Source: Isoetes taiwanensis (taxonomy: Eukaryota; Streptophyta; Lycopodiopsida; Isoetales; Isoetaceae). From it: a DNA stretch of 64,000 nucleotides. The translations under genes and the position numbers were made by a program. Position 1 is the stretch's first letter, and each line of letters opens with the position of its first letter. A model generated the notes under the pieces. The model was not told where the DNA came from. It ran no database searches and saw only the letters and a program-made list of their open reading frames with translations. Location of the stretch: positions 4,219,025 to 4,283,024 of the forward strand of contig JAJEKV010000062.1 of assembly GCA_021234155.1 (NCBI GenBank). The letters run 5' to 3'. This document shows, in pieces, positions 1 through 64,000 of the stretch.

Positions 1-3000
1 TACGGGGGCACAGACGGCGAGGTAGGTTGTCAATAGTCAGTATTTTCGTCAATCTCGCCCGACGTATTAAATTTCGGCAATATTCGCTCCGATTGGTTTC
101 ACAGATTGTTGTCATAACACAGATCTCTGAAATATTTGTTATAATATCGTCACTTGTTGTCGTTATTTGCGTCTCTGAATCCTTTTCTGTTTCTCCATGA
201 AAAGCGTCTGAAATAGCGGGCGTATCGCACAAAGACGCCAGACATCCGAAAGATGAATGCGCACGATCGATTCGGTGCCAGCCATTTGCCGGAGTTTCGC
301 CATCAAGGAACGCCAGGTCATTTCATATCCTCATTTATCAGTCAGCGTTGTGCTATGTTGATCTTCACAGATGATTACGAGGAAACAGCCAACCACCACA
401 GCAGCGAATGAATACCGGAAGATCAATTGGTCGGCACTTTACCGCGAATACATCAGAGCCTCCCACAAGAGTGAATGTTAACAACAGCGGCCCAGTTGTC
501 TGCGCCGTGACGTGATTTTTGCCAGTGCAGCGGGATTATGACGACTACATCTCTTATGTCGTTTTCATTGTCTGGTCAGCTGAAGCGAGATTCAGGCGTC
601 AGAGAAATATTCCGGATACGAAATGGAGACAGCAAATCGTCGCATATCTCAGGTTCATCAAATCTCTGTCTGGCCTCAGCCTTAAACTGCTTCTTTCAGA
701 ATGATGCGAAAGAATTAAAGTGTTAACTTTTCATCGTGAAAGCTGCAGACTCTCGGTCATAGAATATCCAAAGTCTTTTCGTGTGAGTATCAATATCTCA
801 AAACCTCAACATCGTGCTGTAGCCAGCGCATGCCATAATACTATTAATGACATGCAAATGCCAGTTGTCATTACGCTGCTGTGTCTTCGACGCGATATCA
901 GGTTAGTTTGCTATGCCGCGTGTCGAAAACTGGAATATCAAGTTTGCGCCACGTTATCACCAGAAAAGCGGTGTTCTTTGACCAAATCACAGAAAAGACA
1001 ATGGCTGTACAGCCGCGTGAACCTGGAAATGTTTTAGTCGACGGGCCGATTGCCTTACTTTTCGTGCCGCGTTAACAGTCGTACAGCTGTTGAAGATGCT
1101 CAGCATGATAAAAGTCTCATTCCTGCTTTATTCGTAATACAGTGAAGTATCCAGTTTTCTTATTACGGGTCGTTTTTCATTATTCGCTGATGTGCTGCAC
1201 TTTATCTGCATCTGACGGCAGTGAGCGTTAAAGATTGGAGCGATGCGTGCCGCGTTTGCCGGGGACTCACGGGGAGCGACTCAATGGGGAGTTTGCTGAT
1301 ATGCATGTGCCGATGCAAAGCAGTGCCAAGATAGATCAAAGAGTGAATAACACTACTGGCTAAAAATAAGACTCATACGCATACCGGTTCAGTTCGCTGG
1401 CGCGACCATTGAACACCAGTCGTTTTCCTCTCTGCGTAGATTTACCAGACATAAATTTCAAAAGAAAGCTCGCATTCAGCTTCGAAGCTGATTGAAATCA
1501 ACATTCTTTGAAGACAATGGAGTGTCTTCAGATAAAGTTTTAAATTTTAACACAGGGCACTTAGCAGCCGTTATCGTTTTTTCACGTTCATATTTTCGTG
1601 TTGTCGAGAGCGGGGATGCGCTGGGAGAAGGCGAAGGACATATTCTCTTCTGTTTCAGTGGCTGGTATTGCCGGTGCCGTTATAAGCGTCAGGTGCCGCA
1701 ACATGGGTGCTGGTCAGCAGACAACAGCAGCCCCTGTTTTCCGAGTGCTCCTTCTTCATTGGGTTACTTTTCTCAGTACTTTTGGTCGCTTTCTGCTATG
1801 TTCGCTATAAGCGTTTTAGCTTGCTGCTTTTGTTATATTTGAAGTTACCATCAGCATCACCGTAGCTGCCCGTTGGGATAAAGTCCATATGGAGATACGG
1901 AGTTCAGAAGAATCGTTAACGCAAAGTCGAGCGAATGAAGAAACCGTTATGCCAGCGTTAATGCCGCGTTTCATCAAATCTTGTCATTACGCTGCACAGG
2001 CCCATTGATTGTGTTACTGGCACGGGTGCCAGATACCGGAATGAATTGCTTTATGCGCCCCGACAGACAGTGCCTCCGTCTTCCAGTTATCGCAAAAATG
2101 TAAAGAGTAACTGGCTCAAATTGCCGTACCATATTATTGTCAATGCGATTGTTGCGTAGTCTTAAAAGCAATATTTATTTAAGGTGAATTACAGCCAGCA
2201 ACAAAGACAAAAACAACAGTATGACGAATTTTGCATACCAAACCCGCTGAGCAAACGGTTGGCCTTAAGCCCTTTCGCGGAGCCGGACGGCAGAAAGCGA
2301 TCAACAATGACAGCTGATTTGTCACGCCAAAAAAATTGCACGCGAAGTCTGCACTATCTCGAGACCAGATTTCAGTTCCCCACGTCCCCTGGCTGTGCTC
2401 AGAGTTCGTGCATCTTAAAGTTGCTCAACTGCCGCTGCCGTTAGCATTGTCATCAACCGTTCGTAGAAGAACCACCAAGTAGGTCTGCGCGACACAGCCA
2501 AGATAAATATGGTCAATCATATCAGATTGCATTTTTCATTGCAATTGGTAATTCATCTCTTCCGACTTTCACCATTTCAGCAACAAAGCTGTTACCTCAG
2601 CCCTGCTGTCAATTTTGCAGTAATACTCAACATCTGCTTCAACAGTTTCATATGCGTATCAATGGCCTCTCGCATTCCGCTTCTGCCGCACTTATGGCGA
2701 AAAACAAACCACCAGCCATCTTCCAGTCATCAGTGGTACTCAAACTGCTGCATATCGCCGGGTGCCACCATCCTTGCGCTCAGATGCTGCCGACAAGCAG
2801 CAGCCAGTTACCAGCACCTTCGAAATCTACCCTTTGGCGATTGCTGGCCACTCGAGTAGCTTATTCACCTTCAATAGTATCAACAGATATTTGTGAAGAG
2901 GCAGACATCATCACAATACTATAGCGCAAAATGGCATTCACTGCCATAGACATGTGCCGCACGCCTCTTTGGGTTTATCAGTTGCCGTGGTGTTGTCGTT

Positions 3001-3020
3001 CGGCTTCCGCTCTTCCCGGC
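1..3020. other. Outer end of noisy left arm; no partner inside window
   Basis: The left arm is a degraded reverse complement of the right arm, and base 3,193 pairs with base 64,000. Everything further left should therefore copy DNA beyond the right edge of this window, downstream of the kinase gene. I see no recognisable gene. The small open frames show no domain and no consistent frame. The text has the same broken quality as the rest of the left arm, with short plausible words interrupted by GCC/CAG-rich strings. That this is 3' flank of the kinase gene is inference. Confidence 0.5.
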
Positions 3021-3029
3021 AATAAATTT

Positions 3030-6000
3030 GTGTAGCTGCTGGCATGGAGGCCTGAGTAATGCAGTTGCCATTCGCTTCGACAACTCGCCTTCTCGAAATG
3101 CTTCATCACGCGCCTCAAGCTGAAAGTTACGGCAAGTCGCTGCTCAATAATGTTAAGTTGGGGACGCGATTACGTACCATATTAAAGCTCACCAAACACA
3201 AAACATAATTAAGCAGAGAGGCTCAAGCCGTTAGCTAAGAATTACTATATAATTCACTATGTCATAATAGCCGTGTTGTTTTCTACATAATTGACAATCT
3301 CGGAGTAGTTCAATCTTCGGTACCGCATCTGGTGATCGCGCCTCACAGCGGGAGTTAAACTGAATTTGATCAAACGGCTTGCTGCAGATATGGCAAATAA
3401 ATATTGCCGCTAGATTTATACAAAAATGGGTTGCGGCAAAGAAGAAACAGTTATCAATCATCTTAAGTAGCGTCTGGTGATGTCCACCGCATGACTGAAG
3501 AAGGCTTTTCGCACCTATTTCCCACGCACGTTACCACTTCCCACGCATGCCATGTGCGTTATACCCAAAGCTGTTACAGCTCAGCAATTGTCACAAGTAA
3601 ATTCAGGTGATTTTCATTCATTGTGACTTCAGCCTCACTTTCACGTGCATGGGCCATGTCGCTAAAGGCAGCTAATGGAGAGTTGTCGCGATAAAATGAA
3701 TCAAATGGTGAATAATCGCCGACAGCCGCTTCAGCTTGTCGTCTTCATATCTCAAGTACGCTGAAAAGTGCATTTAACACTCTGATGCCCATTATTTCTA
3801 GTTTTAGAAGAGATAATATGAACATAAGAAAAATGAGATACTGCCTGCGTATTTCGGTTGCGAGTTTGAGATGGCGAGGACACCGTTTAGCATTCAAGAG
3901 CGAATCAACGCTTTATGGCATTCGCACGCCGCAGAAGTTCATATGGGTCAGAAAGCCGTTAACATGCTGCAGACACAGCGGGTCATCATCGTATTTACGA
4001 TTTGAGGCATTACCCACCAGATAGAGGTTCGCTTCACCAACATGGCTGTGATCAACATATGAAGGTGCATTACGGACATCTTCACTATTGTACCGCATTG
4101 TATAACCTCAGCAATAAAGTTCGCCGTTTCTGTGTGTAATTTCGCAAATTTTCAGCTTAAAGACATATGCAGCAAAAGACCCGAAGAAGAAGTGTCTATG
4201 TCTCATTTCAACACCTCCTGACACCGAAAATCACATCTGCATCGAGATACAGACGCGGATGACGCAATATCAGCAACGCCCAGAGGCTTCGAGCATTTGA
4301 CGGATTTCCAGACCTTAAAGCCTGCCTGCAGATTCATTGCTCATCCTCGGTGAGTCCTTTCCTGCCGGGAGTTGAAGAAAATTCCAAGTCACTCTTCCGC
4401 ACGAATAAAGCAAAATATTGTACCACACAGCACAGTCAGACAGAAGGTAAACAGCCAAACTCCGCGCCATGCTGTCATCAACATTTCCAGCATCGCCATT
4501 AACCTTCACCTGAAGTGATTTCAGCGAGATGGTAAAGCCTCAACCTTCGCACACGCGGAAATGAAATGTTCAGATACAGGTCGACATTCAAACAGTTCAA
4601 GAAGCTGCGTACTGATCTGAGATTTAACTGACTACTTGAGATGATCCATTTGAAGCATTTATATGCGTCCTTCTTGCCGTTATTTACTTCAGCAAATCTC
4701 ATCATCTTCAAATTACCAAGGAAGTTTGCCTCCGTATTTCGAGCCGTATCACTCGGCCAGAAAGAAATACCGTGTTCAGGCACACCAATAATGCTGCGAT
4801 GGTCTGCTGACGTACCAAATTCCTCTCCGAGACACCCGAAAGCCTGGCGCATAAGCCAAAATTTCACCGTGACGCCGGTTTTACCGGCGAATATGAGCCC
4901 GCATAACGACGCCGCATGATCCAGCTGCAGAAGTTCGAAATGTTCTTGCCTTCGTATGTAATCTGAAAGCCACGTTCAGACGCTAACGCAAGCGGCAGCC
5001 AGTGCCAACTGGTACAGCAGCATTGGCTGGCTAAGCAAAGCTTGGCCAGCTTCATTGGTTCGGCGAAAGGGTACACTGGCCTTAAGAACACTTTTGCAAA
5101 AAATTTTTACAGTCGCCTCGCTTTTTATGTCACACAAATAATCAATGGCTGCGCACCATCTTCCCCGTAAAACAGGGTCTCACTGTGCCAATCACTAAAT
5201 GGGCTGCTATAAGGTTTCGATTATACCGCATTTGCATAGTCAGATTCTGACCGGCAGACGCCAGCAATGCATCATCCGCAATGCCGATGCACTGCAGCAA
5301 GAACATTGCACTGGGGTGATTATGCTGAATGAAGATTTTCATACTATACCGACCTTTGCCAGTGCTATCATTCGTTGCATGCAGTTGCATGCCATTTTCG
5401 GGATCTTTCGCCGCAGCAAAGTTTCAAGATACTGGGAATTCGAAAAAGAAGAGGCAGACGCGCAAAGTCTTCACATTGTAGTTTATGCGCCAAAAACGCG
5501 ATGTTTTGTATTAGTCATACCAGCGTTACGCATTTTCCGTATCTCTCATGCCGTTCCGAGTTGCTTTCAGTGTCAGCACAGCGGAATGTATCCACAATTT
5601 AAGCGAAACCCAGATCAAACAGAAATAAACAACCTTTCTCTACCACTGCCGTTGTTAATCTTCAGCATAGTATATTCACGCGGGAAGATGCGATTTTACC
5701 TCTGGAAAGTCACGAAATGGTCATTGTTCAAAGTTTTCGACATGCTGATATGCATCACCAGACCTCGTAGCCAGAAGTTCACGAGCCGGTTTTTCTGCTC
5801 GAGTCAGAATAAGCAAATTACGCAAACCATGGTTACAGGCGGCAAATTTACGCAAACAAAAGAGTCATAAAATATAGCTTACAATCGCGACATAACGCAG
5901 GTGGAATTTACTAACACGAAGCGATCATTGCCGAGTTCGCAAGCTGCTCAGTTTTATTTCTCGTTCATTGCATTATCATTTACGTTCGGTCAATCATTCG

Positions 6001-9000
6001 AGTACCTTCGAATTCGCCTTCAAAGATAACCTCTTGTCCAAGATGATGAAAAACTATATTATTACAGTCGTGACACGAGGAAACTCACATCTTCGCAATG
6101 CCTATGCTAGCACTGGAGCGGGGACCACGCCGAGCCCGCACTAACAATTCTTCCTGCTTCATTCAGATACACCTCTGGGAGATACCGTTCTTCCACAGTA
6201 CCCCAGCATTCCCGGACAGAGTTTACACCTGCCATCAGTTATTTCATGCACCAGCTCAAGATTCAAAATGACTCCTTGCCGAAATACTGAGCCGTATTGA
6301 AGGTTAACCCTTCACATAGGTTCTCCATTTAGTTGCACTGATACCTCAAAATGGAGTAAGCATCTACCTAAAATTTCATACCTCAAAGATGCCAATATAA
6401 AGTTTCCGTCAAGACCACTCATTCAATTGTTGTAAACATAAGGATGAGATAGTACTGTACTGTCTTCGCCTCTTGGAATATTTCCGAAAAAGAATAGAGT
6501 ATGGAACTAAGTATTCCGTAGTTTCATGCAAATGAATCATCGCCATTGGGGAGACACATCAATATAAAGATTGGTTTTAAATATGTTGGTTTCATATTGT
6601 CATTTCATATAGAGAATCTGCCAACTCAGTAGTCATGCCATTTTAAAGGCTTGTACGGCGCCTTCAACAAGCCGTTCTCTTCGCAATAGAGGTCGGTGAT
6701 AGTTCTCGTGCCAGAGAGCTTAGGTGCTGACGCCACCGACCAGTTATGCTGAAGACCTGCTGGTTCAGCAGCAAACCGCTCGGTAACGCATCTGCCAGTC
6801 ATGTTGTGAATGGCACGACAACCATCGAATAATTACTTTACCTAAATGGTTCATTTCCCGGAACAAATAACCGCCAGCTTACGTTGAAAACCGAGACAGA
6901 TAAAGGCCGCGCAATTTAAGACAATACTGAACATGAGTAAACAATCTTACAGAATCAGCAGTTCTCTTCCACCGTCTCATCAGACGGATGCCTGTCAACT
7001 GAACAGCGAAAAGATCGATTTCCGTTATCATCCCGAGAAAATCGAGTCTGTCAGTTCGGGCTGATGGCAGGCAAGAATGTCGCCAGTTGTCGATCTGTAA
7101 TTTTGATTACTGAACAGCTCCCGAAGCGTAATGCCATTACCTGCTAATGTACTAAGAACAGCAGTAAACTCAAGAAAGACAAAAGTTAATATCAGAAAAC
7201 TCCCCGCATGTCGCTAATGCCTGCTTTACAAATAAGACAGCCCAAATTCCCTCGCAGTGTCCACATAATTTGTGCACATACTGTAAAGAGCAAGGCCTTG
7301 TCTCACCAACAGTATCAGTCTTCCTCAATACCCCATACTTCTGTTCAAAATCACTCATTTTCCTTCAAACTTTTTTCTCGCTATCTTCAATCTTCGCTTC
7401 CTTCGTCCACCGCAATGGGCTCCATCTCTTTACCGGATCTGTAGTGAGTCCGCGAGCCGGGATTCCCTGCCCTCATCTTCTGTTCGGCCCACTGTAAGCC
7501 TCTTTCGAACAAATCATCTAAGATACATTCGCCGGTGTATTGATGCCGCCACTCAAGCTGGCCGCACGCAGCAATGTTGTCAGCAGTTATATGTCTTCTG
7601 TTAAATCATCACTGTTACGCCGATACCCGTTACTTCCATCAACCACCGACAAATAGCTCTGCTTGCCAGTACGCGTACCGACACATAACATGCCTGCCGA
7701 CTGGTCAACACGTCACCGCCTATCTCCGTAACACTAATACTACATCCTATCGCGCCGCCTTGCCAGCTCGAGCCACTTCGAGAGGCATGTCACAAAAATA
7801 ACGGGTGAGCGATGATTTTCATCTGGAAAGTTAACAGTTCTTTCCACCGGCTTCCGCAACAGCGTGAAGGTCTGTAATGACCTCAGACCAACTCTGCTGT
7901 TGGCTGCATCGTGAGCCGCCTGACAGGCCGGCAATACTCGCGCCCTGACGTTTTATTGCCATTACATTACCCGTTATTGGAGCGATTCAATGCTGCTTGG
8001 AGAGAGCTGCCATCGTCTCTAAATATCAAAGGTGACGAAGGTGTTGGTTTAAATAAGCGATAGAAAAGAGAAAAGAAAAATAAAAGTGTCTATCGCAGAT
8101 TCTCACGAAATCCAAGCTCATTCCTCAAAGTTACAGCACTGCCCAGGAGATCCGGTGACTTCCGACGATCCTCGAGCTGGCATTCGGTGAAGAAGTACTG
8201 ATGTCGCCCGCCAGCCCATTGTCCTTCAAAACGCGTAGACATCCCGAATACGCCGCAATGAAATCGACACTTTGTATAAACAGCGAGACTTTCTAGAACT
8301 TTGCGCGCTGTTTCAGAAAGCCACAATATCTGCGCGCGAAAGCCAGAATCGCTCACGCGTCGTCAGCCCCGGCGTAATTTTGCATGGCTCGACTCAGCAC
8401 AGTACTGCGCCGTTGATTCGGTTCAACTTCATCCCCAATTTTGTTGCACTGATAAAAGATATCCCATGCAGTAGACAAATCCGGTTTACTGGCGACAAGG
8501 TCAATACAGCATGGGATGTGCCCGATTATTTATACCCTCACTTACAGCGGTTAAATCAAAGTTTACTCGCTTAAAAGCATTGGTACAAAAGCCTGAATAT
8601 TCCAGATGGTGCTCAGGTAAGGGTGATTTGTCATCCTGGTTGTGCGCACATGTCAAGTTTGTCAAACAACGCAAGTGTTCCGTCATCCGCGTTGTGTTCA
8701 TCATGTTTACCACAACGCGACAGTGCCGGCACGGGGCCGCAGATCGGTTACGCGAGCACACATGTCGAAGTTTGTTGTCGCGTATCCACACTTACGCCCC
8801 ATTCGCACATTCATCAACTCCGCATATGTGACAAGTTGCACACTCCTACTATATACCACCGGCAGAAAATAAAGTTATTCCAGCGGTGCCTTCTACACGC
8901 CATGGGTTAAACCTCAACAATCATTTAGCGTAATAAGATGCATAAAGAAGCGAAAGAGAAGAAGCTGTGCCTATGTTTTCAAGAGCGACATGAGTGAGCC

Positions 9001-14058: not shown

Positions 14059-17000
14059 AACTATAGCGGCCGGCTCGCTGCATCAAATGGCTCTGGAAAA
14101 GATACACGTATTATATTATTAGTGACACAAATGGTTAGTAGGCATTGTCACTTATGTCACTAATGTTGTTCTCGTCATCATCGTTGTCATGCCATGACAC
14201 TATAGATGCCAGCACATCATATAGCATTGCTGCATCAAGATACAGCCGCTATCAATAATCTACACTAAAATATCGTTGGTCGGGGACTTGATGAAACAAA
14301 TCGCTTCCGGATAGCTGTAAAGCTCATCCGCCAGTATTTCTTAGCGATAGTTTTCATCCTCGCCAGTCACAGCACACGCACCTTACCTAAAATAAAGGTA
14401 GAAATCCACCATATCATCGACCTCAAAATACACGCTACGATGAGTGGTTTCCAGTACTCGCCGGTGCTTATCATCGATAACCTCGCTGCAGCTGAGGAAA
14501 ACCCTAGTGATAAGCCTTTCGCTTAGATAATGTATATATAGAATCGCTTCCTTATCCCTCAAGATGAAGTCGAACATGCCGCTACCACTCAGTATCAGCA
14601 TTAATCACCAACACAAACAAACGCAGACAACACAAATATACCGTGAGAATAGCATCACTCAAATGCAGGAAAAGTATCGACAAATGGTGGAAAACATGAT
14701 AAAATAAACTTGTACAAAAATACAATAAACAAAGAAGGGGAGGTGGGTTCAAAGAGAATAAGGTAATCGTTGAGAGAAGAGGAAGCAACATGAGACGGAT
14801 GCAAGTAAACGCCACCGAAATAGCTTAACTCCCAACCCAACGCATATACTACCAAGATGCATGCACGACATGTATGCTCGCCCCATTCTAGAAATGGCTT
14901 ATCCGGCTGTCTCGATCGACAAGCGCATTCTAGAATGGGGTAGAAATTAATAAAATCAGCCGACACAGAGTATTTCATAGTTCAGATTTAGGACGAAGGT
15001 TGTACAGCGTCGAAAGGATAAAGGAAGAACGCCAATTACAACCAAAGCCCTCCCGCCCGAAACAAATTAAAAGAGAATAAGGTACCGAAGAGGAAGCGCC
15101 CTTCTCAGCACTTTATTCTCTTTGATTTGTTTCCAAAAGCGTGGGAGGGGCCTTCCTCGCCTCGGGTTTGGCTAATTTGGCGCTAAGCTTTCCCACGGCC
15201 CTTTCTTTTAGCCTTCATCCTCGCGACCTTCGGCCCCCATCCTAGCTCGCTAAGGGTCCTTTTCGCATTCTTTGTTGGTTTCCATGCGAATGCAGCGTAA
15301 GAATGCTCTCGACCCGTAAAGGGAACCCAAGATTCTTGCTCACATCTATACATGCATGCATTGCATATGCGCCGCATGCATGCATCAGCATGCGCTTTGG
15401 GGCCGCTTCTTCAAAGTTGGGCCATACGGTCATGAGTTCTTCATCGACGCTTCATCTACGCCTTCCCCCGCCAGCATCTTTCATTCTTTGAACCCACCCT
15501 CCTCCCCCTCTTTGTTTATTATATTTTGTACAAGTTCGCTTTATCATGTTTTTCCACCCGCGGGTGATGCTTTTTCCACCTAACGGGTGATGCCATTCTC
15601 CCATATAAGCTCTCTCGCCATGTGTTGGTGGATGTGCGTGTACAAAAGTTGGCTTAAGTTTCATCCGCTTTGACTTCCATGGGGTTTCTTTTGGGAGCCG
15701 CATTCTATGCCTTACGCTTGTCTATTCTCGTCGTAAGGGCTTATCACTAGGGTTTTTCTCGAAAACCCTAAAGGGCTGGTTTTAATCCCTAAGTGATGTT
15801 TTCTACAGTACATCACCCACTCATCTATATTAGGTGACATTTGTTTCAGTCCAAATGATATACTGATTTTCCCTTATTTCCTTTCTCAGGTAGTCTTCTA
15901 TGCGCCATCCACCGGCCCAATTGCAGAAATCACGGTGATGAATGAGAAGTTTATTTCAGACTTTGCTTCATTCCGCCATTTTCTACAATGGCGGATAGTG
16001 GTGGTCAAAGATTACGGCTACCCATGTGTCAGTGTCCACTATATCATAAGATCGCTATACCGCCGAAACACGACGGTACCGGCCTCGTGTTTTCGGTGAA
16101 AACCCTAGTGATAAGCTCGCAAGAAGGGCTTGACAACGCAGGCATAACGCTTCAAAACTCATCTAACGGAAAACGAACATAAATAGCGCTGGTCAGTATC
16201 GCGATATCAATAACGTAAACAATTAGTTACTAAACTAAACTCCGCATAACACACGCTGCACACGAGCAAAAAATACACAATCAGTAGGGGAGGCGGGCAG
16301 TAATCGCCGGTAGTGCCGATGAAAAGTCGGCGCAGAACGCCTAACTCCACCGAACGCAGATATGCCGCCGCGATGCATGCTTAAACATGCATGTTTAGTC
16401 GGCGACCGACGTCTTCTATCGGCGACTTAATGGGACAAGATTGTTCAACAAACCGGGCCAAAGCGATCTTAACAGTTCAGATCGAACAGACGACGCGCAG
16501 CACAACATTTAAAGAAACCAGTTCGCCAAATGTGCAGTTTCCCCGAAACAATTCAAAGAGAATAAGTCGTCGGTAGAAGAGAGCCGATGATGCTGAAATA
16601 CGTAATTCACCCATAGCCAGCCAAGAGCGTAATAAACATGCATGTTTCGCCCCATTTCTGTATATCCGATGTCCGGACGATGATTCCCAGAATGACCAAG
16701 ATGAAATCAATGAATGCCGGTCATCAGCGATTTCATAGCCAGGATCGACGGCAAACACAAGATAAAGCGTCGGTAGACGCCAGCGAAGAAACGCCAGCTC
16801 GCCAAACAAGCAGAAGAAGCCTCGCCGAAATACCGCAGGCGGGTATCGCCGGTGAAGAGGAAGCGCCGCTGATGGGCAAAACAGCGTAATCTCCCCGGCA
16901 TGCGCCGCCGCATGCAAAAAACATGGCTGCCGTCTCATTATCGGCTATCCGGATGTTCTATCGACAGAGTTACACGTATATAAATAAAGTTAGCCTGTTA

Positions 17001-19518: not shown

Positions 19519-22480
19519 CATGCCGTAATGTCAAATTGTGTTTACGCATGCTCAGTCACGGCGTTACCGCCGCTAATGTTGAAATATCATTTCACAGCAT
19601 AGACAATATCTCGACGCATCAACATGTTGTTTCATAGCGAGTATTTGCGCAAAGCGGCAGCTTGTAAATACCGCAGTTGAGAAGAGGCCGTCATGGCTGT
19701 TCTTCAGGTTTCAACAAACACGCTTCAATGCTTGTATTTAAACAGTTAAATGCATTTCCGTGGCGCCAGCATGTGAAACGCTTCTGACATTGTCAAGACA
19801 GCAATGTTGGCGTGGTGCGACAGCGAAGATCTTTATAAAGATGCACGCAATTACAGCCCCTGAACAATCAGTTGCCAGCTTACCCCGCCGCCAGTGCCTG
19901 GTCATTGAAATTGCCGCTGGAGCCGTCTGGTCGATCGCTGCCGTTGCAAAGAAATACATTACATAGCCAAGCTCTTCTTCTAGATTTAGAGTTACTGGGC
20001 ATAACGTCCGGACACACTTTGTATAGTGCATTCTTTCTCATTACTATTGCCTCAAATATTGTAAGAATTTTCTAGTCGCTTCAATGAGGAAGCTTTGTGT
20101 TCGGTCATGCCGATAAAACCCCGCGCCCGCCATATACCGCTCAACTGTAAAATGCTTCCAGCAAAGCGTGTATCTTACGACCGTATTTTGCCGCCCGCCG
20201 TCTCGCATCAGTTACGTCAATGCATCATCCTCAGCGTACCGAAATGCTTAGCTTCAGCCATCGCCAGCCATAATTTCGTATCTGCATATAGTGCTACGAT
20301 AGACACAGTCTTCCCTCGCTCTAAACAGACACATAACTCATCATAACTCATATCAATATCTTTTGTTCCAACATTCAAGTTGCGTCCATACAATATATGA
20401 CGGCATACTGCGTATTCATGCTCGGGGTCCGTGCCGCATCATACCATCTCATTCAAAAGTGTTTTGAAATTAATTAAAATCGCCATCCTGATTCGCAGCC
20501 AATGCCAACAATAGCTCGCGTTCATCTCGACAAAGAGAGTAAATACGTCACTGGCATCGTCTTTCTGTTGCGTTGCCATTTCAGCTGGTCGTTTCAGCTT
20601 TCAGGCCTGAAATTTTCGTCAACACTGATACTTTGTACAGCGACTGCTTGCCAATGATCTCAGCCACAGTGTCGTAACGTCCAGAAGCATACTCTTCCAG
20701 CCATTCATCGTTTACGCCGCGTAATTTCATAAATTCCTTGTCATGCAGCGATTTTAACCATTAACGACAATATTATTGTGAAAGCAAAGCCAGCCCACAC
20801 CGCAGAACATACATTTCAATATTGTCATGAATAACTGCCGACCCCTAAAATGACAGCAGTATCAATACAAAGAATTTCCGCGATATGACATCAAGTGAAT
20901 TGTAAATGGAAGATACCGAAGCCGAATTACAAAGAAGAGCCGTTGCGCTTCATAAGCGTGGTCGCCAGCGTTATTGTTGTCGTCGCCATTGCCTCGATTG
21001 TCGGGTAGCATTCTGTAAATAAACTCTCTTCGCAGCGTTTCGATAAACATTTTCGGGAATTCAGATCACAACACCATATTGCTGCATATTCACGAAAATA
21101 ATGGATTGTTTACGAGTGAAAGTTCAATATTTCGCATACCTCCCTGGCGAAAGGAAGGCGCAGCGACACTTTGCATCTGTTAGCCACCTTTCAGCCGGTG
21201 TCATCGGTTTGTTACGCTCGATTTCAAGACATGTCGCACCTGACGCCGTAGCTTGAAGGCAACTTCCTTGTTTGACATCGCAGTTGTGATCTGGTCACCC
21301 ACTATTTTAACAGCATAGCACAATACTCCTACGTACTGCAGCTCTGGGCCATGCTGAAATTCATTTTATCGCTATTCTTGGTGTCATTGTAGAGAACTCA
21401 TTTTCAAACCACAGAGTCAATGTTTATTAGCAATGTTGCACCGCTTTATAAAGATACACATGCAACAATTCACAAAGAATGCTTCGTATCCTCAGTAAAG
21501 TAGGGCGATGGCGAAGATGCGTACCATCTAAAAGCAGCTTAGAGCGCAAATCACCCGCAAAAGTACTCCAAACATCGGAAAATCGTGAACTTCGTTATAA
21601 ATGTAAACGCTAACAAACAATACCTGGGAGTTAACTATTTATCTTTGCCCCAAGAAGTATTGTTATCCTATACTGCAGATCGACATGTTACACCCACCGA
21701 AAAATTTACTGATTTCCACGAAAGAAAAACGCAGTACCGCTGTTACGCTGGGTAAGTGTTTCGAGTGTTCAAAGGCAATAACATGCTTTGCCCGCACACA
21801 TATATGCCAGTTTTGTCCAACGTGACTGGCGAAGCCGCATATGCGTCGGTGACGGATTACGGGAAAGCCGAACTTCGTTCAGCATACACGCACGACGATC
21901 TTTCACCATGATACTTTAAGATTAGGTAACTTTCACCATGCTGAAGCCAGGCATGCTGCTACCAGCAGCCACATAGCCTGCATGCCGCTGGAGATTCGCG
22001 CAGCAGAGTATATGCTGTGTCATCAGTGTCTTTCGAAGAATAGTTGTCTTCGGGCGACTCAAATGCAACTTCGCCATAGATCGCTTCACCAACATCACAA
22101 AAGCGATTTTTTCTCAAGCACATGAATTCAATCAGTAAACAACACAGAAGTTTTTGTCAGCTCACTGGTCTTCAAGAGATTAACTAACAGACAAGAACAC
22201 TAATAACATCTTGGTGCTTAAATGCGAGAGATGCATTTTATATACCACAAATTCCTTTCCCTAAGAAATTGCAATATTCCATCCGCCATAATCAACATAA
22301 ACTTTCTCGTTATTTAGTTGTCAGTCAGCCGCCATGTTGTCGTTCCCAGCCCAGTTAACCAGATTTCATCTTTACAAGCCTCTTTTCAAATATCATTCAC
22401 GCCTAAATGGTCGATACATTCTTCGTCAGGCCGCGATCATGGGATATCGCTACTTTCGGCTTGGGCAATGTTCTTCCCCG
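19519..22480 (-). mobile_element. Noisy inverted copy of the Ty1/copia element
   Basis: This is the counterpart of 41,454-44,712. Firm anchors are at both ends: 19,519-19,620 with 44,620-44,712 (the LTR start) and 22,190-22,390 with 41,560-41,770 (protease region; shared words include GAAATTGCAATATT and CCAGATTTCATCT). The middle is too damaged to show integrase or reverse transcriptase motifs. It cannot be coding as written. Confidence 0.8.
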
Positions 22481-34260: not shown

Positions 34261-34369
34261 ATCAGAGGTTGCCATTGTTAATTGCGTATGAGGGTAACAA
34301 ACGGGTTGCAAGAGCCGCCTGTGGAGTTGAGAAATCGGCTAGAAGGGCAGATGCATCGAAAGGTGCTAT

Positions 34370-34980
34370 CCGGAGAAATGAGGGGTCTATTTATGTAAAA
34401 GGGGAAAACCCACTTTTGGGTGACTTTGGAAAATTCCTAGGTTGGGTAATTCTATTATCCGAGGTCAAAATGGGAATTTTGAAGACTAGATGAGATGTTT
34501 GAACAAGGCTAAATTACTAAAAAGATGCTATACAACAAAGTTGAGGATGATCCGACAAGTTCCCGTGAAGAATAGAGGAGGTCTCATACCATACCGCTTC
34601 AAAATCCAAAGTTTAGTTCTAATGCACTGCCGAAATGTGAGACATCACCCATTTGATCAAAATGCGGTCCAATTTGGGTAAACTAAGGGCGAAGGATGAT
34701 GGGCTCTTCAAATCGTATTTAATCGAATTCCCTTATTTAATATTCCATTTGGAGTCGCTTTGTCAAGTTTATGAGGTCTTCACAAATTACCGCTTCAAAA
34801 ACTAAAATTTAGGTTTTGGCGCACTGTGCAGCCGTGAGACATCACGCTGTCCGCAGAATTGTCCTATTTTAATTAGCCAAAACTTACTAACTTGCCCTAA
34901 TTAATTCCAGCCTATGCAATTAAGGTACACAAAATTGCTCTATATTACAAAATCTTCACTATTTACAAAAAAGGTTCTAA
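34370..34980 (-). repeat. LTR-like block A with internal subrepeats
   Basis: Two subrepeats begin near 34,588 and 34,786, each with ACCGCTTCAAAA, a variant of CTAAAGTTTAG, then a phrase resembling GTGAGACATCAC. The phrase GAGAAATGAGGGGTCTATTTAT near 34,374 resembles one near 36,250 in block B. The two blocks are thus related and could be LTRs of one element, or of two related elements, read on the minus strand. Exact termini and target duplications were not found. Confidence 0.45.
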
Positions 34981-35506
34981 GGGCGCTTCTCCCTTTATAT
35001 ACTCAGCCAAGTAAGACTCATGTCTTGTCGCATTAGGTTATCCGCTATGCAGGAATAAAGGTAAGCCGTTGAATCTTCAAAATGTTGTGACTATTCTTGC
35101 CTCAAATGGGCTTCTTGCATTGCCAAGTAGCCAGCCATCCTGACTCTCAAGTTCTGGCCCCAGAGGGCCTCGCATCACTTCTCGAATCCAACTGGTTAAA
35201 GGGGCACGTGGAATTAGAGATCAGAGTTTCTCGGCTGAAGTGCCTAATCTCCTACAAAGGGCTTCCTCCTCTTACCTCCTCCTTCCTCACCAATCTTCTT
35301 CTTGGGTGGCGCTTTGGGGGTCTTGGCTTGCGGTGGCGCGCTTTGGGCGTTTGCCGCTGGTCGCCTCCTGGCGAAATCTCGACCCTCGCTTTCTCTTACA
35401 AGACTTGGCCGCATCGCTTCCACTTTCATATACTGCTCCTCATCTTCCTTTCAGATACGGACCCGTCTCGCGGACGAAGCTTCACCGCGGTGTCGTGGTC
35501 GCTTTC

Positions 35507-36180
35507 CTATCCCATGCCGGTACTCGGGGCTTCGTGACTTGATCTTGCCGCTGCTCGCGCCGTACTACCTGCTCGTCGCCTGGTGTTTAGAAGAGCTTCC
35601 ACCGCAGCATTAGGTTGAAGTCCTAATGCATGAAGCCGCCGAGGGGTTCCTGAGGTTCGTCGGGTCACGCCCCGGATGACGCATCTGGGGTTAGGGGCCT
35701 CTCCTCGTGGGCATTCTTCGCCTTTTCCTTTTGTGCTATCGAATTTAACTTCCCTTCGCCTTCTTTTCTCTTCGCTGCTTTCTGCCTTCTTCCTCCTTTT
35801 CCTCTTTTGTCTTCCTTCCTCTTCCTGGCTGCTCAGATTTGCAGGTAATGAACCTTCTAAGGTTCTGCTCGACGATGATATTGCACTGCCACCGCTCGCC
35901 GAGGATCTCCGTGGCCTTCGCACGGTCTTCTCGCTTTTCCGCCTCCCTGATCTCCCGCTTCTATTTTCATAAGCCTTTGTCTCCTCGGCCCATGGAGGTT
36001 GGTGATGTTGCTCGCCCTCGCCCACCGCCGCTGAAGACGCCGACGACGACGTGTTCGTTTCTTCGCCCGGCTTAATCCACCCCTCGCAGCCTCCCCGCCA
36101 AGACCGCCGGTCGATCTCACCGTGGGCCGGGGTGGTTCTCACGACACGCCTCCCTCGGGTCAGTCATTTGGTTCGCCATG
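35507..36180 (-). pseudogene. Gag-like frames behind LTR-like block B
   Basis: Reading the minus strand away from block B, an ATG at 36,180 opens a short frame (MANQMTDPREA...) that soon stops. An adjacent frame, 36,142-35,507, continues for 211 codons and is rich in R, E, S, K and G, with a strongly basic stretch. The layout of LTR-like block, short leader, then basic low-complexity polyprotein resembles the start of a gag gene carrying a frameshift. No diagnostic motif is visible, so this may be fortuitous. Confidence 0.3.
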
Positions 36181-36189
36181 CTACTGGGA

Positions 36190-36812
36190 TCGTGAATCGC
36201 AAAGGTCAAAGATCTTCTAAGTGGGGAAGTATTTAATTTAGTCGAAACGAGAAAAAATGAGGGGGGTTTATATCTATTTATAGCTTGGGAAATTTTAGGC
36301 TCAAAGTCTGAAGGTTCTATTTAAATATGCCAAGGCACCTACTTAGTTAAAAATCTACACTTATTTCGACTTTTCTATTTATTATTCACGCTCATACCGC
36401 TTCAAAACCAAAGTTTAGTTTGCACTAAATGCAGCCTTGAGATCTCGCATATTGCTAGGTTATTTAGGTAATTTCAAAAACATGCTATTCTAATTAATTC
36501 CTACTTCTAGAACTAGCTTACCACATTACTTTCCTCAAATTCATCATGTTTTGCGTGGTTTCGATGTTCATACCATACCAAAAAACTAAAATTTAGTTCT
36601 CATGACCAAAGGAAGTCAGTGGAGACCACCCTCACTTGGAAAAATTTTGGGCTTATTCGCTTTTTAATCTTATCAAATTCCACCGCTTAATTGTTACTAG
36701 TTTAGCATAACTACAAAAATGAGAAAAAATTTCCTTTTTCCTAATTTTCGAGGCTCGAGGATCCTATCAAGTCGGCATTTCATCGAACATGGCCGGCTTT
36801 GGTCGAGCTCAT
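36190..36812 (-). repeat. LTR-like block B with internal subrepeats
   Basis: Subrepeats near 36,390 and 36,569 share the phrase (ACCGCTTCAAAA or ACCATACCAAAA, then C-TAAA-TTTAG) with block A at 34,588 and 34,786. The sequence is AT-rich and carries no open frame of note. The spacing of about 180-200 bases between subrepeats is similar in both blocks. Confidence 0.45.
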
Positions 36813-38230
36813 TGTGACGCCCCTACCGTAATGGGCTCACCGTGATACAAACAAAAGAGTTCTTCCCCCACACCAAACCCATGTCATAATGGTGCCCTCC
36901 ACATATCAATCGCGACCTCAGAACGGTCCCAAAGGGGAAGAGTGATAAAATATTCACCGCCTCCCCGTACTAATGAAGCCGCGAAGCGCAAACACAGCCA
37001 TGTCAAGACACAACAGGACTCCAAACCTACCCGTAAGGGTGTATCAACATCCCAGATGCATGACCGTTAGCACATCACATAGGGAATCCTACCCAAGGCC
37101 TTTAGATTGCGGGAGTGATCACTACTGGGCCTCCAGAGTTCATGGCATAATTCATGGCAATGGAGCTAATGGCATGAGAACACATGGCATAGGTCCACTC
37201 CATCCGCCTCCCAGGTAATACACTTTGCGAGTAGGGTCAAAAAGTGTTCGACCTCGATCAGACGGATGCATAAATGAAGGGTGGTCTCGGACTCATCCCT
37301 CCCAGCCCGATGGGGCAGACCAATTCTCCGCAGAGATCTACATGCCGACCTCAAGCAGGACTAGAGGACCACGCCTCGTGAGTCTCGGGACCGAACCCAT
37401 CGAAAGTGTACACCACTACCTGCAAGCCTATCTATGCCTCACCAAGACCTCAGGAGCCATTAGACCTAGCTCACCGTTCCCCGTAGGCTTTACACACCGT
37501 AGGGATCAGTTTCCAAGAGTCGACATGAACTCCTTCTTAGCTGGGCCCGGCCCCTTCACCCACAAACTGTGTGTGGTTCTAGACACAGCTCTAATCTACA
37601 AAGTGGTGCTAGAGAGGCTACCTAGGAGCATCAACTACAAGCCCTAGGGCCTCACCCCTTCCCAACAATACAAGGAGTTCCAAAGATACATCATCCATAT
37701 AAGACTGGTAAGAACCAAAGTTGTTCATCTAATCTAAATCATGGTTAGCCCTTGTTAGTGTCCCAGATCTAAGATCTAGATAGTTAGCCATGGCAACAAT
37801 AGTCTAAAACTTACCGGGTTCTATGACTAGAAGACGGCTGCTTTCATTAAATTGACCAAACACCGACCGTGGTGGTTCTCCTCCTCGACCGAAGTTCAAC
37901 CATCCCATGAGTCAACAATTCGTGGAAACCCCATGCATGCAATTCTCTTGGCAACGCTCGAGGTGGTTTTGGCTCCCCGGGCAGCCACAAAAACAAAGCT
38001 CTAAAAAACCCTAAGGACTAAAAAAAAAACTAGCAAGCTAGGGTTTTCCTACCCTAAATAGACATGGGTTTAGGGTTAGTTTCCAATTATCCCTTGGCAT
38101 GTATAATTGGAAAGGGCCCAATTTGCCATTAATGGCTAGGTGGCAAATGTGGCTCCATGGAAAAGTGTCTACATTAATGTGCATAAGTGCACATTAATAA
38201 CATGTGAACATACCTAGCAAGTTGCCCCTA
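36813..38230 (+). repeat. Probable LTR of a Ty3/gypsy-type element
   Basis: The sequence starts TGTGACGCCC, a start I associate with LTRs of chromovirus-type Ty3/gypsy elements. Overall it reads like long, compositionally even LTR DNA. A 140-codon open frame at 37,225-37,647 has no recognisable domain and is probably chance. No second copy of this LTR is in the right arm; the only other copy is the noisy one near 25.0-26.3 kb. The right boundary, target duplication and internal domain were not found. It may be a solo LTR. Confidence 0.4.
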
Positions 38231-40990
38231 GGGCTACTTACCCGCTATCCGTCGGGCGCATTATCGCCGCCTGAGTGGCTGTACGCTGCGGATTTCCAGG
38301 CAAGACAAAGATAATGCCTGACCGTGAGCACCGCGGGCCGGAAAATCAGCTACATTGGCCATCCACTCCACCCATTCTATTGATTGGCCTCAAATTTTGT
38401 TCCTCCGCCTCCTTCATGAAATGATCGTGATCCGCAAATTCTTCGGCCTTGAATCTACCATAGTGCCACCTACAGCCATCCTCCGTTATTGTCCCCTCGG
38501 TTCACCCACTCCATCCAAATACCTATGTCTCAAGCATCCACCAAACAGCCCTCCAATCCTACCCCTGACCAAACCTTCATGAAGAAACTTCACGCCTCCC
38601 TCCCTCCTCATCATGCTCAAAACCAAGAAATATATTGTGACCGCTCCTTTCCTCCATCAAACTTAATTCTCCAGCCTAATACATTTCTCAAAGGCCATAG
38701 CCTAATTCCATGAACCTGACCCTGATATCTACCGGCCCGTATAAACTCTTTATCAATACCAACAGATGTCCAAGCCATGCTCAAGCCAAGACTCTCTTTA
38801 AAATTTCCCCAAGGAAACGGAATTCAAGGTTACATGGAGAACACATAAGCACTTCATAGAGATTTCCGTGCCACCATCAAGATTCAATCTCTTCTTGAAG
38901 ATAGTTCCCAACAAAAAGCATGAGGCTCTTTTACGTGCCCTCAGGACTCTCTGGGTCAACAGAACATACTAGCCTCGCCACGGGATCAACAGCTCAAGCA
39001 TACTAACTATTCAAGAATTGTTGGCTACCAACAAGGATAAGGATAAACTCCTGCGCATAAGGATAAACCTTTGCAGACAAATGTTACCTGAAAGCTGTAA
39101 TTACAAACAACCAGCCCAAGACCTGGTGAGCGAATAAAGCGATCACTTCTCTCCTCGGCGACCAACTCCTTCCACGCCCAAGACCAGCCACGCCTTCGTG
39201 CTCAACTCGAAATCTGTTCTCAAGTGCCTTCATCTTCACGTGCCACCAATCGAAGTTCCAGATGATCACCCCGCCTTCACGACAAAAGATAATCAGATCC
39301 GGAAAGACCTGGGAGAACAACGGGCAAAGATGATGTTCAATCATAAAGACGCAAAATCAAATGAGGTATACATTGATCTTGCTCTGTGATTCCTAAAGAT
39401 GTTTCTACGCCCAGCTATCCGATTATGTGACAGCCCTACTCATCTTTCTTCCTCAAGTGGTATTCGCAAACACAAGCTTAAAGTGGAGCCCCCGGCAAAG
39501 GAGGGAGCAATGACCGCCATTCTTTCCACGCAGCGACAAAAGGGCCATCGTGTCTCTTAGTCTTTTGATCAACCTTAATCGGTATGGATCCCATTTTGTC
39601 ATCTTCTCCGTGTTGTTCGTACCCGCGGCCGGTATTTTCATGATTTTTATCCTGGCCGATACACATAAATTCTGAAGACGCCCATCGGATTTTTCAAGGC
39701 AACCCCTATGCTCATTGGTCGCTATTACAAAACACCAGATCTCCTGTGGATCCCGGGCCACTTCACACTCTTTGCACGGAAAGTACATGCCTCGAAGCTT
39801 GCTCATCACCTACCTCTATGGCAAGCCGAGACGGGCCAGTGCTAAGAATTTAGCTCATCTCGGTGATCTTCCACAGAATAAATTTACATGCAAGACTCCG
39901 GGTGGCTATACCACCCCGCCGTGCCTCTTTCTCTCGACAAAGCACTTCATACCCAGTTGCTAATCCTCCAGTTTATACTGCCGTCCTCGATTGGGACTGG
40001 AAACGCTTCGATGCGGACTTGCTCATGAATTCAGGAGCAGCTCAAGAACTCAATGCCAACCGCGATTGCTCAATCTCCATGCTTCTTTAGGGTACCATGT
40101 ATATCTCAACGCTTTTGGATTGGCGTTTCCTTTGGACTTAAAGTCATGGAAAGGCCATGTCACCGGACTCGTGCGCATTTCCACCGATCTTAGATGGGAT
40201 CCGCTTTGTCTGGACACGCCTAATTGGTAGAATGACGCCTACTGGGAGCACACTAAACATTCACATCCCTAATGAGCGCGTCATGCATCTACCCAAGCCG
40301 CTCGCCTTACCCTTCTGGCGCCGCCACCTCCCATCGCCATCCGCTCACCGCCAAGCCGTTTTGTGTCGCTTTAAAGCGCCTTTTTGTTGAGTTCGCCCCA
40401 CATCGCCCTATCTATTATTATTGCAACCCACGCCAGCCGTTTGGTACCTTCGTCTTCGACTTCATGGAATACCGCTTGTCCTCACAAGCACACCGCCCCT
40501 TTGAAGAGATGGTAATTCGGTTTCATTGATGCTCATCCAAAGAATCTGGCCTAAATACTCGCTTCCTCACGTACCCACAAGACCTTATTGCAACTATCAC
40601 CTCGCAACCGCCTCATACACGCAGATGACTTCTTGCTGTTTGCTGTTTCAACACTTCCCCTTTTCTCATCCCCGAAAGTGTCGCTTTGGTGGGGGAGTAA
40701 AGATCCCAGACGCCCCGGTACGTGACTATTCATGCACACCTCGGATCAGGTCAGAACAAGGAGCCACAAGCCGCCAAGGTCAGCCAAAAGCCCAGCCAGA
40801 AGACCAAGCAAAGGTAATTGCCAGCACCACGCTGGTAAGGCCACGCACGCTAAAAGAAGAGGCCGAGAATCGCATGTATGACTCCGCCAATGCCAACGTT
40901 GATTTCGTGCATTCTTCAAGAGGCACCGCCAAGATTCCTCAAGAAATCGCTCCTTCCGTGAGCCCAAGACCGGTGATCCGGCTGTGAGTG
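38231..40990. other. Decayed, unclassified sequence
   Basis: Short interrupted frames occur in all phases, for example plus-strand segments at 39,198-39,389, 39,863-40,090, 40,157-40,390 and 40,526-40,987. None shows a motif I recognise. The first ~110 bases (38,238-38,350) look as choppy and GCC-rich as the left arm, so local consensus may be poor there. It lies between a probable LTR and the truncated copia element, so old transposon sequence is the likely origin. Confidence 0.3.
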
Positions 40991-43873
40991 TCTATATCAC
41001 AGAGGCCATTGTACTATATATATGAGTAGAGCTAGCATTCGAAAAGTTTAGATGAGTTTTGGTTCTTTGTCTCATCATTTTCTCTCTCTCGACAAGTAGA
41101 GCCTTATGTATTCTCATTGATATCATGAGTTTCTTCACATTATTTGTGCTTCTCATGCCTTTTGTTTTTCCTTCTTGTTCTTTTGCAACTTCAAGGTGAC
41201 ACAAAATTTTCTCCCGCATTCTCCGCTTGATCCAAGGGTCCTCACAGAGGGTCAGCTCATGGGAGTTCCCCAACCTGCACTCCCAAACAATTTTAAGTGT
41301 GGGAATTTCTATGAAGCATAGGCATGCCATCCGCAGGATGAGGATGAGCTCACATAGGTTTGGTGTTGAAGTAGGCAGGTGAACATTCCTCACGAGCTTA
41401 GATGGTGTAAAATATGTGAGGCAGGAATGCTTGAAGACGAGGAACATGGACTTCTACATTGCCATGCTTACAAAGATATTCGAGAGAAGTATGATGTATC
41501 CATGATCACGTATTGGGAGATGTATCATTGATATTTTAGAGCGTAGGGATGATGTTTGAAGAACCTTAAAAGTAGATGAAATCTGGTTGGTAGATTCGGG
41601 TGCAACCAAACACATGGCAGGAAAATTTGAGGTGTTTGAGCAACTAAAATCTTTTGAAAAGTTTATGATTAAAATGGCGGATGGAAATATTGCAATTTCT
41701 TCAGGAAAAGGGACTGTAAATTTGAATACACCATATCCGAATACATCATTTTTCCTCACATTTAAACTTAAAGATGTTATTCGTGTTCTTGATCTATTGG
41801 TTAATGTTAGTGAATTTGATAAAAAACTTGGTTTCTCTGTGTTGTTTACTTGGGGATTCGTTCATGTGCTTCAGAAAAATCCTTTGTGATGTTGATTTAG
41901 AGCTTGGCCAAGGGATATTTGAATCATGAAGACTTGTATATTCTTCAAGAAAAGTTACTAGGTAGTACAACATATGCCTCTCTTACTGCAGCAATACAAT
42001 AGACACTTGAATCTCCATGGCATGCAAGGTATGGCCATGTGGCTACTTTGGTTGTAGCACATGCCTCAAAACTCAACATGGTGAAAGGATTACCTAATCT
42101 TAAGTATCATGAGTTGAATCATCATGCATGTAGACTTGGAAAACAAGTTCAACTCCATATCCATCTCAAGCACACTTTCATGCAACTTCACCAATCCAGT
42201 TGGTTCGTTCTGATATATGTATCTGCCTACTGCTTCTTTGGGTGCAAAGAGGTACTTCATTCTTTTTGTAGATGACTTTAGTAGGTATACATGGGTGTAT
42301 CCTATAAAACTGAAGTCTGAAGCATTTGCTTGTATAAACTATTCAGCTCTATGGTTTGAAAATGAGTTCTCTACAATGACCAAAGTCTTAAAGACTGATA
42401 AATGAATTTCAAGCATATTTAGAACACAAGGGAGTACATTAGGAATTAATTGTGCCCTATGCCCATTCTCAAAATAGGTAGCAAAGCGTAAAAATAGCTC
42501 ATTATTAGATCTAACTTGCAGTATGCTCAAGCATAAGGAGTTGCCTTCAAATTTTTGGGCAGTAGTGGTAATGATTGCAGCTTATGTCTCAAATCGAGCA
42601 TCAACTAAGCCATTGAAAGATATGACACCATTTGAGAAATTGTACAAGGTCAAACCAAATATATCTCGTCTAAAAGTTTTTGGATGTCTTGCATATGCTT
42701 CATATCCTAGGGAGATTATGCAAAAGAATGGTAGACTCTCTCATAGAGCAATCAAACTAATTTTCATTGGATATGCAACTAATATGAAACATGGAGATGT
42801 TGTGATCTAGTTCAAAGGAAAGTGTTTGCATCAAGGAGTATTCACTTTACAGAAGAGAGTTTATTTACAAGAATGCTACCAGCCAAGTCAAGTGGATTAT
42901 GGGCAGACAGTATGCAATCTTTTCTAGACGATACATATATGGAAAACACAACAACATATATCTTCTTTGCTCATGAAAATTCAACTCAGGTATCTTCCAT
43001 TTCTATTCCACTTGATGTCATATAAAAACTTGCAAGTTCTTTAGCTCAATCTGTGTCTACTTTGTCATTTACCTCTGCTGAAGCTTTTGCTATACAGGTT
43101 GAGCAAGTTATTCATGACAATAGTTTTCAAATGTATGATTCTCTTAGGAGATCAACACGTTTAGCTTTGCTTCCTAATGTAATTATGCATTAATGGTTAA
43201 AATCCTTCATGACAAGGAACCTATAAATTACCTGCAAGCAGCTAAACATGAACATTGGATGAAAGCTATGGAAGAAGAGTTAGATATGCTTCACAAACAA
43301 GGGACTTGAGAGTTGTTACCAGCACTATGTGGTAAGGATGTCATTGAAGCAAAACAGATCCTTTGTACAAAGTATCAATGTTGATAGAAATTTCAAGGTA
43401 CAAAGCTAGGCTGGTAGCTAAATGTATACACAACAAGAAAGATTTGATTATAGTGACGTATTTACTCCTCTTGTCAGGATGGACACCTTAAGGGTTGTGT
43501 TAGCATTAGCTGCAAATCAAGGATGGCCAGTTTTTCAATTAGATTTCAAGAGCACTTTTTTGAATGGGGATGTAGAAGAGGACCTATATGTGCAACACTC
43601 GCCTGGATTTGAGCATAAGGATACACCTGAGTATGCTTGTCATATGTGAAAGTGTTTATATGGACTCAAATAGGCAACTAGATGTTGGAACCAAAAGATA
43701 TTGATATGGGTTATGATAGGTTATGTGTAGATCCTAATCTTTATTTAAATTTGAGGAAGACAATGTATCTATCATGCTACTATATGTAGATGATACAATT
43801 ATGACTGGGCAGTGGCTCTTCTCTTATAGAAGGCACTAAGAGGAAACTTAAAGCTACATTTGAAATTACACAC

Positions 43874-44575
43874 TTGGGATTGATGCATTATTGTCTTGGT
43901 CGGGAAGTGTGGCAGACGAAAACAAAATCAGATCATAAAGATGTAGATTCTACACTTTATAGCCAGCTGGTTGGGGCGTTATTATATATTGAAAACACGA
44001 GGCCTGACATTCTTTATATGCTGAGGGTTTTATCAAGATTTATGACCAGACCTAAAGCTCCTCATTGGAAAGCAGCTAAAAGGATCTTACAATATTTGAA
44101 AGGTATCAGTAATGAAGGTCTGCACTATACAAAAGTGAATGATCCGAAGTTAAGATTATACTCCAATTCTAACATGGCTTCTACAAATCTAGAGAGGAGG
44201 AAATGTTTGACTGTATATGTGTATTTCTTTGGCAATAATGCAGTCAATTGGACATCCAAGAAGCAAGGCTCCAATAGTATCAACACTACTAAGGCAGAAT
44301 TAAAAGCTCTAACAATGATTGTTCAAGAGTTTCTATGGTCAATACATCTTTATGAAGATCTTCATATCACTATCACACCAACTTATTTGTATCTTGACAA
44401 TAATGGGGTGATTTCACATGCTAAATATTACAAAATGCATTTACTGTTTAAATATCTAAGCATTAAGCTGTGTTTTGTTCGAGAACCTCTAGAGAAAGAC
44501 AATATGATTTTGTTATATTGTGCTTCTAAAGATCAACTTGCAGATGGTTTTACAAAACTGTTAGCACGCAAATAG
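43874..44575 (+). pseudogene. Copia RNase H domain, catalytic Asp lost
   Basis: This is the longest intact frame of the copia element, 233 codons. It starts after the YVDD region of reverse transcriptase and runs through the RNase H domain to the pol stop codon. Recognisable family landmarks are LYSQLVGALLYI, RPDILY, HWKAAKRILQYLKG and SKDQLADGFTK. In active relatives the first catalytic acid lies in a YSDSDWAG-type motif; here it reads YSNSNMAS, with Asn in both Asp positions. The TKAELKA and LYLDNNG motifs retain acidic residues. Loss of the aspartates argues that the protein would be inactive even if expressed. Confidence 0.85.
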
Positions 44576-54080: not shown

Positions 54081-54083
54081 ATG

Positions 54084-55366: not shown

Positions 55367-63892
<8,526 letters not shown>

Positions 63893-64000
63893 GTATGTCT
63901 CTGAGCTCTTTGGCTATTATGACATAATTAATTCTCTCTAAAATTTGATTCTGGGTATTCTTGGCAAACCTTCTCTGTAAATTTATGTTTGTGTGTTTGG

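Follow-up and report, generated by a model that had tools for sequence, protein, structure and literature searches.

The window analyzed here, a stretch of 64,000 nucleotides from contig JAJEKV010000062.1 of Isoetes taiwanensis, was taken in a preliminary description as one giant inverted repeat folded at about 30.8 kb, with a left copy that had degraded within the genome. The question raised by this locus is whether the two arms truly pair over their whole length and, if so, whether the left arm is an old copy carried by the plant or a product of sequencing.

The window was compared with itself by blastn and 27 minus-strand matches were obtained at E ≤ 1e-5, 23 of which fell on a single antidiagonal running from 3,379/63,780 to 22,305/41,658; the remaining four were repeats of the segments 14.7-15.6 kb and 48.6-50.3 kb, either within one of them or from one to the other. 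At E ≤ 10 the line extended inward to 30,790/30,821, its innermost match being weak taken alone (E = 0.11), thus bearing out both the whole-window inverted repeat, with its innermost part resting on weak collinear matches, and the fold at about 30.8 kb. Once reverse-complemented, the left arm (3.4-30.79 kb) matched the right arm (30.82-63.78 kb) in the same order, whether the sequence was exon, intron, copia-like element or intergenic. The exons, introns and transposon said to be paired do pair, and the antidiagonal expected from a comparison with the reverse complement was found to be continuous and not confined to transposon segments. Ten previously proposed anchor pairs lying within the aligned part agreed with the alignment to about 40 bases, as interpolated by eye, and the outermost pair, 3,193/64,000, agreed by extrapolation only, as pairing is demonstrated from 3,379 inwards and positions 1-3,378 would mostly pair past the window edge. 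Shared repeat content was ruled out as the origin of the pairing, since exons, introns and intergenic sequence pair too.

In an anchored alignment, a procedure that inflates matches, all 38 blocks exceeded their own shuffle in identity (one shuffle per block; shuffles 0.43-0.53). Identity in the 30 blocks with a right side past 42,333 was 0.60-0.70 in 16 cases, 0.456-0.598 in 13 and 0.957 in one. The seven innermost blocks, corresponding to the inner 11 kb or so of the right arm, showed a slight excess (0.53-0.59 versus 0.49-0.52 for the shuffles), and the block between these two groups reached 0.535 versus 0.520. Pairing of the inner part was therefore accepted because the weak matches are collinear, not because of their identity. 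Control comparisons at E < 0.01 returned 38 matches for the real left arm, 28 of which fell on the expected band and added up to about 15 kb with overlaps counted double, and none for an arm that was only reversed or only complemented. Three trials with the left arm shuffled in 50-base blocks still gave 46-50 matches, because the blocks themselves still match, and only 3-4 of these (130-183 bases) were on the band.

The gene content of the right arm was then evaluated. A reading frame of 452 amino acids at 61,652-63,007 found its best relative in the fern Ceratopteris richardii (E = 6e-86, 44% along its full length), followed by seed-plant proteins, several of which are named MAP3K epsilon protein kinase; out of 7,997 candidates scored, 108 proteins, many of them unnamed, fell below E 0.001. 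Six of these homologues were searched against the window by tblastn and all six gave good matches in the right arm, one of them (P0001) in three stretches at 61,535-63,895; four of the six had no tblastn match at all in the left arm. Because the MAP3K-epsilon-like matches sit there, the right arm is, as judged from its sequence, plant DNA. The coordinates of these and the other features are collected in Table 1.

Table 1. Features of the window, with positions counted from its first nucleotide.
Feature	Positions	Strand	Basis
Right arm, plant DNA as judged from sequence	30,821-64,000	+	CpG depletion; MAP3K-epsilon-like exons by tblastn; 33/33 1-kb windows from 31,001 on not E. coli-like
Left arm, proposed second, badly base-called pass in reverse complement	1-30,790	-	Collinearity with right arm; E. 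coli-like 4-mers overall
Hinge, about 30 bases separating the innermost paired stretches	30,791-30,820	.	Self-matches and anchored alignment
Left-arm text without right-arm counterpart, about 0.3 kb	21,430-21,900	.	Self-matches and anchored alignment; expected partner at about 42.1-42.3 kb
Left counterpart of the repeat-rich right-arm segment 47.8-50.8 kb	14,200-16,900	.	Not E. coli-like (4-mer correlations 0.05 and 0.11)
MAP3K-epsilon-like exons	60,936-61,121; 61,184-61,273; 61,347-61,448; 61,529-63,190; 63,283-63,690; 63,770-63,895	+	tblastn, 6 of 108 homologues
Further MAP3K-epsilon-like match	58,755-59,045	+ (right arm)	tblastn, E = 3e-8, one protein
Sole MAP3K-epsilon-like trace in left arm by these proteins	3,565-3,900	-	tblastn, 2/6 proteins, E = 0.003 and 0.015
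Copia-like retrotransposon pieces	41,560-44,572	+	Motifs

Domain and RNA searches added little to this picture. At E 0.01, only one of the 10 longest of the 100 right-outer reading frames (at least 60 amino acids) matched Pfam, namely 63,265-63,693, with ARM_ARMC5 and Arm both under Pfam's cut-off; no match was returned for the 10 longest of 113 left-outer frames or for 10 of 66 right-inner frames (three longer overlapping ones being passed over). The element at 41.6-44.6 kb, which from its motifs we take to be copia-like, had its longest reading frame (43,805-44,572, the only piece scanned) matched to no Pfam family. The 452-residue frame matched no solved structure, and neither Rfam at gathering scores nor ARAGORN returned anything in the window. 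Reading frames of at least 100 amino acids are not rarer on the left (9.9 versus 8.6 per 10 kb on the right), so that their length does not tell the arms apart.

Some further traits of the right arm were recorded. At 60,491-60,869, immediately upstream of the first MAP3K-epsilon-like exon to match strongly, lie short direct repeats, 48 and 104 bases long and about 87% identical. The segment 47,717-50,660 (left copy 14,634-15,949) contains repeats in both orientations, about 70-680 bases long and 68-89% identical, is richer in GC and CpG than its flanks and may be a mobile element that is nested or non-autonomous. The inner right arm (30,808-41,500) has a G+C content of 0.49, is C-rich on the plus strand, carries CCGCTT 18 times and its reverse complement not once, and could be either a GC-rich repeat element or the result of a strand-specific calling error. 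It is low in homopolymers (2.8 runs of five or more bases per kb, versus 4.7 in the right outer and 2.9 in the left outer arm) and is not E. coli-like. The right arm is well read from about 42 kb, and the inner part, up to 41.5 kb, is of uncertain accuracy and may contain noise.

The collinear pairing of a gene, its introns and a transposon speaks for the reading of the preliminary description, in which the arms are an old inverted duplication with a left copy eroded by mutations. The left arm holds 0.848 bases per right-arm base in its outer part and 0.781 near the fold. At sampled points of the anchored path the outer part was straight (r = -0.9999, largest residual 145 bases) and the inner part deviated by 66 bases at most, with residuals of up to 340 bases for a single line through both parts and the unpaired block. 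The alignment contained about 81 left-arm deletions per kb in the outer part, the longest of 58 bases, and about 102 per kb in the inner part, the longest of 19 bases. Over 27 kb, evolving plant DNA is expected to carry lumpy indels and inserted transposons. The compression found here is instead even, and the long indels expected of an ancient inverted segmental duplication were missing, the only case noticed being the unpaired left block of about 0.3 kb.

Mutation of double-stranded DNA is near symmetric between complementary classes, whereas base-calling of a single strand is not. Substitutions were read along the right strand, with the right side taken from 42.5 kb and the repeat-rich 47.75-50.75 kb left out. 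In this set A>G occurred at 530/4288 sites (12.4%) versus 248/4373 (5.7%) for T>C (p = 2e-27), G>A at 285/2934 (9.7%) versus 66/2739 (2.4%) for C>T (p = 7e-30), and four of the six complementary pairs were unequal at p < 1e-4. With nothing left out, the corresponding values were 818/6942 (11.8%) versus 442/7443 (5.9%) and 489/5340 (9.2%) versus 268/5593 (4.8%), and five of the six pairs, all except A>T/T>A, were unequal at p < 0.001. The asymmetry was weaker in the inner part alone (G>A 8.3% versus C>T 6.5%, p = 0.04). The equality of complementary classes expected of an ancient inverted segmental duplication was thus not found, and the strand asymmetry speaks against such an origin.

Exons were kept no better than introns, which also argues against a decayed gene copy: arm-to-arm identity was 0.663 in exons (2,551 columns), 0.72 in introns (421) and 0.654 in the non-coding 54.75-58.7 kb (4,172), and the three codon positions matched at 0.715, 0.710 and 0.688 (452 each). 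CpG more than doubled, from 21.6 per kb at 42.5-63.78 kb on the right to 55.4 per kb at 3.38-21.3 kb on the left, with CpG odds of 0.53 and 1.11 respectively. Errors introduced at random, at the rates measured, gave a mean of 0.83 over twenty simulations, and would explain part of the rise. An unselected copy in a methylated plant genome is expected to show no such rise, and the gain counts against decay because decay there would lower CpG. The differences of the left arm are marks of a base-calling failure, not of evolution. The preliminary description was accordingly right on the antidiagonal, on the fold and on the pairing of all kinds of sequence, but its degraded genomic copy was not upheld, given the even compression, the strand-asymmetric substitutions, the CpG gain, the exons no better kept and the E. 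coli-like oligonucleotides reported below; an old duplication is very unlikely, and the left arm is most likely an artefact instead.

The oligonucleotide composition of the left arm, which also stands against decay of a plant sequence, was compared with that of reference sequences. Taken as a whole, the left arm resembled E. coli most in its 4-mer usage beyond dinucleotides, with correlations of 0.65 and 0.69 for two stretches of that species, followed by Azotobacter (0.47), Rhizobium (0.45), KVP40 (0.37), Vibrio (0.33), Priestia (0.25) and phi29 (0.16); as the reference set was made up of plasmids, phages and a single bacterial chromosome, "E. coli" may mean enterobacteria generally. The correlation with E. 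coli was -0.09 and -0.08 for the right outer arm, -0.14 and -0.09 for the right inner arm, and at most 0.14 in 20 simulations of context-free errors. E. coli was still the best reference for 5-mers (0.59 and 0.62) and 6-mers (0.46 and 0.48). Divided into thirds, the left arm gave 0.68 and 0.70 at 3.2-12.75 kb and 0.65 and 0.68 at 22.3-30.8 kb (next reference 0.48 in both), with an unspecific middle third at 12.75-22.3 kb (E. coli 0.38 and 0.42, KVP40 0.41, Rhizobium 0.39), which changed to 0.46 and 0.49, others at most 0.41, once 14.2-16.9 kb was removed. Likelihoods were also compared in 1-kb windows, with E. coli set against a rival model trained on right-arm sequence other than the 1-kb window being scored, a design that favours the contrast between arms. 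E. coli was preferred in 25 of the 30 such windows lying entirely to the left of the fold, in one of them by only 0.0002 bits, and in none of the 33 from 31,001 on. The character of the sequence thus switches at the fold.

Individual words behaved similarly, as six of the eight counted, partly picked from those already seen as frequent, shifted clearly towards E. coli; CTAG, for instance, occurred 0.14 times per kb in E. coli, 0.68 in the left arm and 3.30 in the right outer arm. CAGCGC hardly shifted (left 0.49, right outer 0.33, E. coli 1.52 per kb) and GATC moved away from E. coli (2.17, 3.53 and 4.34 respectively). Of 38 occurrences of GCCAGC/GCTGGC in the aligned part of the outer left arm, only one was shared by the right arm; the right outer arm contained 10 in total. 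Contamination of the left arm was ruled against, as positions 1-24,000 had no E. coli genome match by megablast and positions 1-8,000 no phage match by blastn.

Taken together, we consider it very probable that the left arm is a technical artefact, namely the badly called second arm of a nanopore fold-back read that was retained in the assembly. One strand and then its complement would have passed through the pore in a single read, the right arm before the fold and the left arm after it. During the second pass the strand would have re-annealed to the portion already through and moved too fast, giving a poor signal. The base-caller would then have missed bases, with a net loss of 15-22%, and supplied others out of learned E. 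coli-like habits, and the assembler would have kept the bad tail as genome sequence. We infer the nanopore platform, the read direction, the library origin of the fold and the training data of the base-caller. The second segment is indeed a collinear reverse complement across a hinge of about 30 bases and is shorter through missed bases, by the two ratios given above (0.848 and 0.781). Counterpoints to an artefact are the five of 30 left windows that are not E. coli-like and the unpartnered left block of 0.3 kb. As a separate observation, the 48-base stretch 3,379-3,426 / 63,733-63,780 is 96% identical between arms, within blocks otherwise about 53-68% identical, and so base-calling was locally good at 3,379-3,426.

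This failure has a published counterpart. As described by Spealman et al. (2020, PMC7229812), low-quality sequence in nanopore reads of inverted duplicates starts at the junction, and the bad arm tracks the length of the preceding arm yet is consistently shorter; the second arm has raised current and faster translocation, which those authors ascribe to re-annealing behind the pore, with a signal lying outside the base-caller's training. In the window the text likewise changes character at the fold, and the left arm is shorter than the good arm through missed bases. Compression is stronger near the fold, and the sequence-level signs of the effect described in PMC7229812 are present. From the published onset at the junction and these signs, the right arm would therefore have been read first. 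Unlike in PMC7229812, the case presented here concerns assembled sequence rather than a read, and its bad text has E. coli-like statistics; the terms "E. coli", "k-mer" and "composition" are absent from the main text of that paper. Foldback artefacts are given as about 0.55-0.6% of ONT genomic reads in PMC12870357, where, as in the window, the second segment aligns to the opposite strand at the locus of the first; in the published reads this is often without intervening sequence. Those reads were flagged by alignment to a reference, whereas the present artefact is seemingly part of an assembly. According to the same source, such artefacts can tangle assembly graphs and several assemblers, e.g. 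Canu and Flye, look for them, so that an artefact in a contig would need an oversight.

The main competing explanation is a true plant palindrome with near-identical arms of more than 27 kb each, the second arm of which was mis-called by nanopore likewise. The same failure was reported for inverted duplications in yeast and human samples (PMC7229812), and a fold made in the library and one carried by the genome are indistinguishable from sequence alone. A genomic palindrome would however be read from both sides, leaving each arm good in about half of the reads, and here one arm differs nearly throughout. A palindrome with such long arms and such a short hinge is also expected to be unstable in cells. 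A fold made in the library rather than in the plant is favoured because only one arm is bad and fold-back artefacts are common (PMC12870357), and a true palindrome is considered improbable. A fold-back with a short hinge would also be produced by a PacBio read with a missed adapter, holding both passes in one read. The two passes of such a read should be about equal in noise and length, but only one arm of the window is compressed and bacteria-like in its statistics. Moreover, virtually no foldbacks were reported in PacBio HiFi data, among few PacBio samples (PMC12870357), and we regard this origin as highly improbable.

What surprises most in this case is the E. coli-like accent. Its simplest account would be a base-caller taught on E. 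coli-rich data and reverting to it under poor signal. Such a training-data accent has a precedent, because systematic over- and under-calling of k-mers by neural base-callers, including over-called GC-rich k-mers in an AT-rich genome, is reported in PMC5816649, with training data named as one possible cause. That study concerned ordinary bacterial reads and not the loss of signal proposed here; its E. coli runs yielded miscalled 5-mers containing CTAG, a word rare in the left arm. Models trained on E. coli and on human data err differently according to PMC6591954, the relevant part of which deals with accuracy and Dcm sites and not with learned text replacing a lost signal. In the parts of titles and abstracts surveyed on base-caller training bias no such imprint is described, PMC5816649 being a partial precedent, and its absence is not proven. 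We lean towards the view that, past the turn of a fold-back read, a signal-starved neural base-caller replaced plant DNA by some 30 kb of text with an E. coli accent, that this text entered the genome sequence, and that the accent may be detected without reads and used to screen public assemblies for invented stretches of this kind. The unspecific middle third of the left arm and the opposite shift of GATC weaken this reading.

For Isoetes taiwanensis, the analysis removes a striking genomic claim that is most likely false. Even compression of one arm, strand-asymmetric differences, CpG gain and an oligonucleotide switch at the fold provide a cheap test for the artefact that needs no reads. 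Such stretches in public assemblies could pass for ancient duplications, pseudogenes or bacterial contamination.
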